This document shows positions 30,929-43,160 of a stretch of DNA of 60,347 nucleotides, piece by piece. The position numbers and the translations under genes are program-made. This DNA is from Pirellulales bacterium (lineage in GTDB: Bacteria > Planctomycetota > Planctomycetia > Pirellulales > JADZDJ01): the NCBI GenBank assembly GCA_035656635.1, contig DASRSD010000146.1:1-60347 (forward strand), given 5' to 3'. The first letter of the stretch is position 1, and each line of letters starts with the position of its first letter. The notes under the pieces were generated by a model. The model had not been told where the DNA came from and ran no database searches. It saw only the letters and a program-made list of their open reading frames with translations.

Positions 30929-31112
30929 TTTACCACGAAGGCACGGAGACGCAGAGAGGACAGAATTCAATAAGGAAACCAGGAATACAGGAAAGAAAGA
31001 AGAGAAGAAGATTTTAGTGCAATTGCCTTTTAATTGACCGTTCCTGCTTTTCTGGCTTCCTTATAAACTGCCTTCTTGCCTCACTGTGTCTCTCTGTGCC
31101 TCCGTGGTGAAT
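30929..31112. repeat. Inverted-repeat element, family B, copy 1
   Basis: The left arm (TTACCACGAAGGCACGGAGA, then AAGGAAACCAGGAATACAGGAA) is mirrored on the right by TTCCTG...TGGCTTCCTTAT and CTCTGTGCCTCCGTGGTGAA. It fills the gap between the PPOX gene and thpR and ends at the thpR stop codon. Copy 2 lies at 31702-32020, on the other side of thpR. Confidence 0.7.
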
Positions 31113-31701: not shown

Positions 31702-32020
31702 GCAGATTTACCACAGAGACACGGAGAGGACGAATTTCTAATAAGGAAGCCAGGAATACAGGAACGAAAGGAAAGATAAAGATTGTTTGTTTCAATTTCT
31801 GTGGTTGCTGCTTGTTCCTGCCTTCCTGGCTTCCTTAGAGGCTGTTTCAAAACTGGACTTCCTTCAAGGGTGGCTGGGGTCGAGTGCCGCCGAGCCCCCA
31901 GTGAATAGGCTGCTGGGGCTCCCTTCGGTCGACCCCAGCCACCCGATTCCTAGTTTTGAAACAGCCTGTTATAAATCCGATTGTTGCTTCTCTGTGCCTC
32001 CGTGCCTCTGTGGTGAAAAT
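31702..32020. repeat. Inverted-repeat element, family B, copy 2, interrupted by a MITE
   Basis: Same outer arms as 30929-31112 (TTACCACAGAGACACGGAGA on the left, CTCTGTGCCTCCGTGCCTCTGTGGTGAA-like on the right). Relative to copy 1 it contains an extra 131-base element at 31838-31968. It fills the gap between thpR and the PfkB gene. Confidence 0.7.
31838..31968. mobile_element. MITE-like element with TTA target duplication
   Basis: The ends GAGGCTGTTTCAAAACT and AGTTTTGAAACAGCCTG are inverted; an inner pair, GGTGGCTGGGGTCGA and TCGACCCCAGCCACC, extends the hairpin. No ORF inside. It is flanked by TTA on both sides (31835-31837 and 31969-31971). Copy 1 of the surrounding repeat reads CTTCCTTATAAA at the equivalent place, which is the unoccupied site. 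Confidence 0.75.
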
Positions 32021-42323: not shown

Positions 42324-42395
42324 ATATCACCGTTCGAGTGCCCGCTCGATGCGGGTCGTGCAGTAGTCGCGGTCCGAAGGGCCGACCTAGGTCAG

Positions 42396-42423
42396 CCCAG
42401 GCCAAGCGCAGCGTCGGCCTGGG
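42396..42423. repeat. REP-like hairpin downstream of the HUH transposase
   Basis: CCCAGGCC (42396-42403) and GGCCTGGG (42416-42423) pair; a second one, CGGTCC GAA GGGCCG, lies just before at about 42370. The same CCCAGGCC stem occurs on the other side of the transposase at 42979-42997. Confidence 0.65.
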
Positions 42424-42473
42424 TTCACGTTCACACGACGCCTAAGCAAGCCCCAATCGGGCGCACTACGCAA

Positions 42474-42929
42474 TCAATCCCACGCGTATCGCTCGTCGAT
42501 CTGTACGCCATGCCGCTGGCAAAGCGCGCGAAATTCGTCTTGAAAGGTCAAAGTGCGGTGATGCTCTTCTTGATTTTCGATATATCGTCGCACGTCTGGC
42601 AGCTTCGATTCGCTGACGGAAAATATCCCATAACCATTTTGCCAATGAAAATCGCGCAGTGATGGAGCCTTGGTTTTGAGCCACTTTGAGGTGGAGGTTT
42701 TGGCCTCCTCGATCATTTCCGCAATCGTTTTGGTTCTTGCCAGCGCATTGAGAACATGAATGTGGTCCGCAACTCCGCCGATCGTCAGAGCGGGACTATC
42801 GAGATTCTTCAGCACCGTAGCAAGATAGGCATAAAGTTCGCGCCGCAGTGTGGCATCTTGCAAAATAGGAACGCGGCCTTTTGTGCTAAAGGTGCTGTGA
42901 ACGATGACCTTGGCTAAGGACTGCGGCAT
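42474..42929 (-). CDS. REP-associated HUH (Y1) transposase, RAYT-like
   Basis: 151 residues of the IS200/transposase-17 family. The metal-binding HUH motif is ADHIHVL (His56, His58) and the nucleophilic tyrosine is Tyr116 in DVRRYIENQEEHH. These enzymes nick single-stranded DNA at hairpins. The gene is not flanked by ordinary IS ends but by hairpins with a GTT or TTT loop, which matches domesticated RAYTs that process REP sequences. The reading frame is intact. Confidence 0.9.
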   Translation of the reverse strand: MPQSLAKVIVHSTFSTKGRVPILQDATLRRELYAYLATVLKNLDSPALTIGGVADHIHVLNALARTKTIAEMIEEAKTSTSKWLKTKAPSLRDFHWQNGYGIFSVSESKLPDVRRYIENQEEHHRTLTFQDEFRALCQRHGVQIDERYAWD

Positions 42930-42944
42930 AGTTGGCTCTAGTTC

Positions 42945-43160
42945 GCCCCGTTGGGGCTAAGGTGCTGTTGGGCACCGACCCAGGCCGTTGGCCTGGGCTG
43001 ACATTGGTCGGCCCTTTGGGCCGCAGTTTAGAATATCAATTTCCGCTTTGTGTTCAAAACGTCGAACTGGGTCGGCCCGTTGGGCCGCAATCTACGATAA
43101 CAAATTCCACGCCATGTTGTGAAAAGTGTCGAGAGAAGCAACCCGGTTCGTCCCGTTGGG
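42945..43160. repeat. REP-like hairpin cluster upstream of the HUH transposase
   Basis: Five short hairpins with three-base loops: GCCCC-GTT-GGGGC (42945-42957), CCCAGGCC-GTT-GGCCTGGG (42979-42997), CGGCCC-TTT-GGGCCG (43009-43023), CGGCCC-GTT-GGGCCG (43073-43087) and CCC-GTT-GGG (43152-43160). The last three are each followed by GCA(A/G)T-T/C-TA-like words, giving direct repeats about 64-77 bases apart. Confidence 0.75.

Follow-up and report, generated by a model that had tools for sequence, protein, structure and literature searches.

A probable IS5-type MITE encloses a REPIN-like repeat and lies within an older palindromic repeat in a Pirellulales genome

Introduction

MITEs that are mobilised by IS5-type elements are already known (PMC6382973), and so are REPINs (PMC3116915). 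In Anabaena variabilis, dimers of REPs are known to lie within long palindromes (PMC3733652). Here we describe a locus from a Pirellulales bacterium at which nested layers of repeats have a readable order of arrival; this kind of nesting recurs across the genome. The locus is in a window of 60,347 nucleotides, which is the whole stretch of DNA that we analysed (contig DASRSD010000146.1 of assembly GCA_035656635.1, or C146 below). An initial annotation of the window, made from its letters alone, had proposed that a hairpin element inserted into one of two copies of a longer inverted repeat (family B).

Results

The element at 31838-31968 (forward strand) is 131 bp long and has the features of a MITE: it is short, lacks a transposase gene, has terminal inverted repeats, and is present in many near-identical copies. 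Its left terminal repeat, GAGGCTGTTTCAAAACT (31838-31854), and its right one, CAGGCTGTTTCAAAACT when reverse-complemented (31952-31968, reverse strand), match at 16 of 17 positions. TTA adjoins the element on the left (31835-31837) and on the right (31969-31971). The initial annotation had these coordinates, ends, and flanking triplets right. The folding energy of the element is -85.8 kcal/mol.

The 17-bp end has 13 exact matches in the 4.9-Mb assembly (190 contigs) and none in 56 relatives, the congener among them, so the repeat is not due to chance. If truncated copies are counted, the genome has 13-14 MITE sites. Seven other copies share about 99% identity with the window's copy over 130-132 bp, and most copies are 98-100% identical. 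(The window's copy has 131 bp instead of 132 because it lost one G, with GGGG for GGGGG.) The genes that flank the window loci are ~80-87% identical to the congener (G001) at the nucleotide level, so the burst of MITE copies is recent by comparison. We found no matches to the MITE in plasmids, phages, or viral contigs. A single MITE end on C127, with two mismatches, could not be assigned to any IS.

We then compared the target sites across copies, as the initial annotation had suggested. The duplications are exact at six fully assembled and independent sites: TTA on C146, C6, and C165, and TAA on C84 and at two sites on C54. TAA also flanks two copies at contig edges (C58 and C116), and the copy on C125 is flanked by TTA or TTTA, depending on which base is considered the last one of the element. 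(Several of the copies are located at contig ends.) At three more sites (C145, C110, and C55), the duplications are imperfect. The copy on C55 (38620-38751; L036) has TTATAA on both sides and replaces the inner palindrome of a family-B repeat, which the orthologous site (L310) still has. Another site is rearranged: the left ends of C97 and C102 (L356 and L357) meet at one armed locus, whose orthologue is near 74.9 kb on C214 of G001. The MITE there has no right end and has the same 40-bp stretch of inner palindrome on both of its sides.

What kind of transposase might move this element? Within the IS5 family, the IS1031 and ISL2 groups duplicate TNA, and the element has both the GAG... ends and the 3-bp TNA duplication of this group. 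The initial annotation had suggested a search for the MITE's ends beside a transposase gene elsewhere in the genome. In the assembly, which is 95.6% complete, we found no intact IS that carries them, so the MITE shares its ends with no autonomous IS there; its parent may have been lost or may lie in a part that was not assembled. We considered an IS5-type ORF fragment on C76 and DDE genes on C145 and C35 as partners, but the MITE's ends are absent from them.

Instead, we found the ends on an IS from JAAXZI, a MAG from the Phycisphaerae (L123; also L115 and L184). This IS is 891 bp long, and its left 17 bp are identical to the MITE's end, while its right end has one mismatch (16/17). It encodes two transposase ORFs, with PF13340 and PF01609, and its three copies are flanked by TTA, TAA, and TTA. 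The left end matches by construction of the search, which does not apply to the right end paired with it, to the transposase, or to the TNA flanks. The interior of the IS is unrelated to the MITE's, and the MITE has no transposase ORF. Most of the 120 matches to the 17-bp end on genome contigs are chance matches in coding DNA or belong to unrelated elements; by our reading of these 120, only the Phycisphaerae contigs pair the end with an IS5-type transposase. Because the Phycisphaerae IS has the same ends and TNA flanks, we classify the element as an IS5-type MITE, with the caveat that the IS behind this label comes from another genome, the partner being unseen in this assembly.

The same left 17-bp end is also found on short elements in JASMLW, a MAG from the Pirellulaceae (L167 and L189). 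These elements have a different hairpin, GTACGATGGCCTTCCAAGGCC, which occurs again elsewhere in the same loci, and TA adjoins their ends. Shells of this kind are thus found around local hairpins in more than one lineage.

We next consider the repeat that surrounds the MITE. In copy 2 of family B, the left outer arm (31707-31731) is followed by an inner palindrome, AATAAGGAAGCCAGGAA...TTCCTGGCTTCCTTA (31740-31837), the MITE, and a segment with the remaining target and the right outer arm (31969-32020; the arm itself is near 31998-32017), all on the forward strand. The element does lie inside copy 2, as first described. Copy 1 (30929-31112, forward strand) has the arms and the inner palindrome without interruption: it carries CTTCCTTATAAA at 31056, where copy 2 reads CTTCCTTA, then the MITE, and then TTATAAATCC. 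Both copies are two-layered, with outer arms of ACCACRRAGRCACGGAG... and an inner palindrome of AATAAGGAARCCAGGAA...CTTCCTTA, and they are about 75% identical to each other if the MITE is excluded.

Family B is dispersed across the genome, with about 50 loci, including copies 1 and 2. The pattern for its arms has 92 matches in this genome, as compared to 10 for a reversed-pattern control, and 106 matches in G001 (11 for the control). Most of the loci lack the MITE, which, along with the exact duplications, bears out the proposal that the MITE inserted later, with a duplication of 3 bp (TNA). At the variable position before GGT, the two arms of a copy agree in 40 of 43 cases. Shuffling predicts just 22.6, and none of 5,000 shuffles reached the observed value. 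Orthologous copies may differ at this position (L261 versus L294). Together, the agreement within copies and the differences between orthologues point to replacement of whole units or to compensatory change.

Comparison with the congener indicates the order of events. G001 has family-B arms at the sites orthologous to both copies in the window, and the MITE's ends are absent from all of G001, so the arms came first and the MITE arrived later, in this lineage. This upholds the part of the initial annotation in which family B is older than the MITE, but a local duplication from copy 1 to copy 2 is not supported. Also, copy 1 had been taken as the empty site. As copies 1 and 2 are among ~50 dispersed loci and are both positionally shared with the sister species, copy 1 is a paralogue rather than the true empty site. 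A MITE-free orthologue of a filled site is available for C165: that locus (L034) reads TTCCTTA, the MITE, and TTATGAA, while its orthologue in G001 (L290) has the uninterrupted TTCCTTATAAAA, with a single TTA.

In G001, the contents of the two window sites are different. The site of copy 1 has a CGAATGACGAATG-type palindrome between the arms, and the MITE site has an ORF for a GxxExxY protein (TIGR04256, E = 5e-43). More broadly, the armed loci of the two genomes include about 25 pairs of syntenic regions, far above the one or so that we would expect from independent insertion. (The loci in the sister genome were chosen for having arms, so these pairs do not give an estimate of arm loss.) There are about a dozen pairs in which both arms are recognisable in both genomes, and by eye, about 10 of these differ in their interiors. 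The interiors that we saw are palindromes of the TAAGGAAGCCAGGAA, AATGACCAATGACCA, CGAATGACGAATG, or GCGAATAAACGC types, a GxxExxY gene, or nothing. Thus, the arms of family B stay at orthologous sites while the interiors are swapped. At another armed locus (L340, on C236 of G001), a few hundred bases that include coding-like sequence are inserted in the inner palindrome.

The MITE is not placed at random: 6 of the 13-14 sites are in family-B loci (C146, C165, C55, C110, C97/C102, and the right end of C116). The copy on C84 adjoins a related palindrome. Using rough estimates as inputs (55 family-B loci of 170 bp each and a non-coding share of 12%), rough binomial P values for this excess are 8e-14 relative to the whole genome and 2.5e-8 relative to non-coding DNA. 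The excess might reflect survival instead of target preference, if inert, AT-rich repeats between genes tolerate insertions and those elsewhere are lost. The family-B loci do lie between genes, and TNA targets are abundant in some of them, with 0.0056-0.016 YTNAR sites per base in five samples as compared to 0.0095 in an intergenic sample. However, relative to non-coding DNA only, and if target density is also allowed to be threefold higher, P is still about 1.5e-5, and most of the MITE copies are young (98-100% identical), which leaves little time for purging. We give survival a substantial chance, somewhat short of even, of explaining the placement; it concerns the placement only and is compatible with our preferred explanation for the element.

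Inside the MITE is a second repeat. Its core (31868-31944, forward strand; positions 31-107 of the element) comprises two inverted hairpins with GTGG heads, and it has over 20 matches elsewhere without the MITE's ends. Many of these are in another shell, GGTAGTGATGCATTTTG...CAAAGTGCATCACTACC or GGTAGTGGGCCAATTTGATGG...CCCACTACC. The GGTAGTG-type shells with the core (L040-L048, L344, L350, and L352) are MITE-like and have 8-bp duplications, identified by eye (such as CGACCGTC in L044 and GGAATTCT in L046). Other copies of the core are bare. So although the initial annotation was correct that there is a MITE, now of IS5 type, it is not a simple element: the core is a separate repeat. Matches to the core are few and weak in the congener and in one family member.

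The core consists of two inverted REPs that form a hairpin, and it is dispersed, as expected for a REPIN. In contrast, we found no RAYT gene that has the same REP in its flanks: at nine Y1 loci that we scanned, the core motif was present at just one (L087), as part of the C116 copy of the MITE near the contig's end. Because of the lack of a linked RAYT at these nine loci, we call the core REPIN-like.

Could a RAYT-type tyrosine transposase, acting on the core's hairpins, move the whole element as a REPIN, with the shell being irrelevant? The core is a symmetric double hairpin and the most abundant part of the element, and the genome has 13 matches to Y1_Tnp. But the shell has sharp boundaries with 3-bp duplications next to them, which is how DDE-type elements behave; the single Y1 locus with the core has it within a MITE copy; and the repeats around the best Y1 genes are different ones. 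We consider this explanation to be improbable. We also considered Y1 transposase genes as carriers of the family-B arms, but the three best Y1 matches are flanked by other repeats. The window itself contains a Y1 (IS200/RAYT-like) transposase gene at 42474-42929 (reverse strand), between 37-bp inverted repeats, GCGGYCCRAAGGGCCGACC... (42369-43024 in all). This arrangement resembles the "TIRtrons" (PMC3733652).

It is even less probable that the MITE belongs to family B as an integral part, which spread with it and was lost from copy 1: six of its 13-14 copies are in family-B loci, several of them at the same junction between CTTCCTTA and TAAA, but this is already largely refuted by the 7-8 copies outside of family B with the same TNA duplications, by the lack of the MITE at most family-B loci, among them the orthologues in G001, and by its presence in both orientations within family-B loci (C165 versus C146).

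Discussion

We are fairly confident that the element is a non-autonomous IS5-type MITE that depends on an IS5-family transposase to recognise its ends in trans, and that it inserted at a TNA target, encloses a resident REPIN-like repeat, and landed in an older family-B repeat. The family-B repeat was already present between thpR and a gene for a PfkB-type kinase before the split from the sister species. A resident double-hairpin repeat would have become enclosed between the MITE's ends by some route of capture. An IS5-family transposase would then act on those ends. The MITE inserted at the edge of the inner palindrome and duplicated TTA. A preference for family B could be due to its AT-rich, TTATAA-like sites, to exposed hairpins, or to the neutral landing room that it offers. 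Interiors might be exchanged if nested elements are inserted and lost, or if dispersed copies recombine with each other.

GxxExxY (PDDEXK_3) genes lie between family-B-type arms in both species (L213/L313 at C141:31443-31917 in G001, and L244 at C98:48531-49011 in this genome, G000). Across the order, nearly all of the GxxExxY genes that we tested have inverted arms; at most of them, the arms are short purine-rich units of the ACCACGGAG kind. The median score for inverted repeats in their flanks is 21 (n = 29), as compared to 9 at 146 control positions (95th percentile 12.5, maximum 17). A tentative idea, and one that we think is rather more likely to be wrong than right, is that a single mobile element exists in two forms with the same inverted arms: one with a GxxExxY nuclease-like gene between them, and one without a gene, which is family B. 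In this view, a pair of arms would persist at its chromosomal site through exchanges of its contents, and the loci would serve as docking sites for palindromic elements, including the MITE. GxxExxY proteins may have a role in the exchange of interiors or in mobility. If both the exchange and the tie to GxxExxY hold, they would be a lead towards the function of a common protein family that has no known role, as well as a general reason why palindromic repeats in bacteria are so often nested. In the literature that we searched, whose coverage omits most subscription journals, we found neither the link between GxxExxY and arms nor the exchange of interiors; searches for GxxExxY, PDDEXK_3, or nested palindromes in planctomycetes gave nothing relevant, and the mentions of GxxExxY were not about mobility.

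Among known systems, MITEAba12 (PMC6382973) is similar to the window's MITE in its length (~110-130 bp), its ends of 16-17 bp in common with an IS, its target duplications, and its recent burst. Unlike the window's MITE, MITEAba12 has 9-bp duplications instead of 3-bp TNA and has a co-resident ISAba12, while we found no co-resident parent; also, the interior of the window's MITE is a separately repeated double hairpin. The core is similar to REPINs and to GTAG-type REPs (PMC3116915, PMC3733652) in that it has two inverted hairpins with a conserved head (GTGG in the core) and is dispersed, but we found no adjacent RAYT, and many copies of the core are inside transposon-like shells. As with the REP dimers of Anabaena variabilis (PMC3733652), the window's locus has a palindrome within a palindrome. 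However, A. variabilis has one REP family and one type of palindrome, whereas here, one core is found in several shells and the MITE shell is within a family-B locus. Nested palindromes as such are known, and overall, the chimeric MITE, together with the way in which it is nested, is a variant of what is known for IS5-type MITEs, REPINs, and REP dimers within long palindromes.
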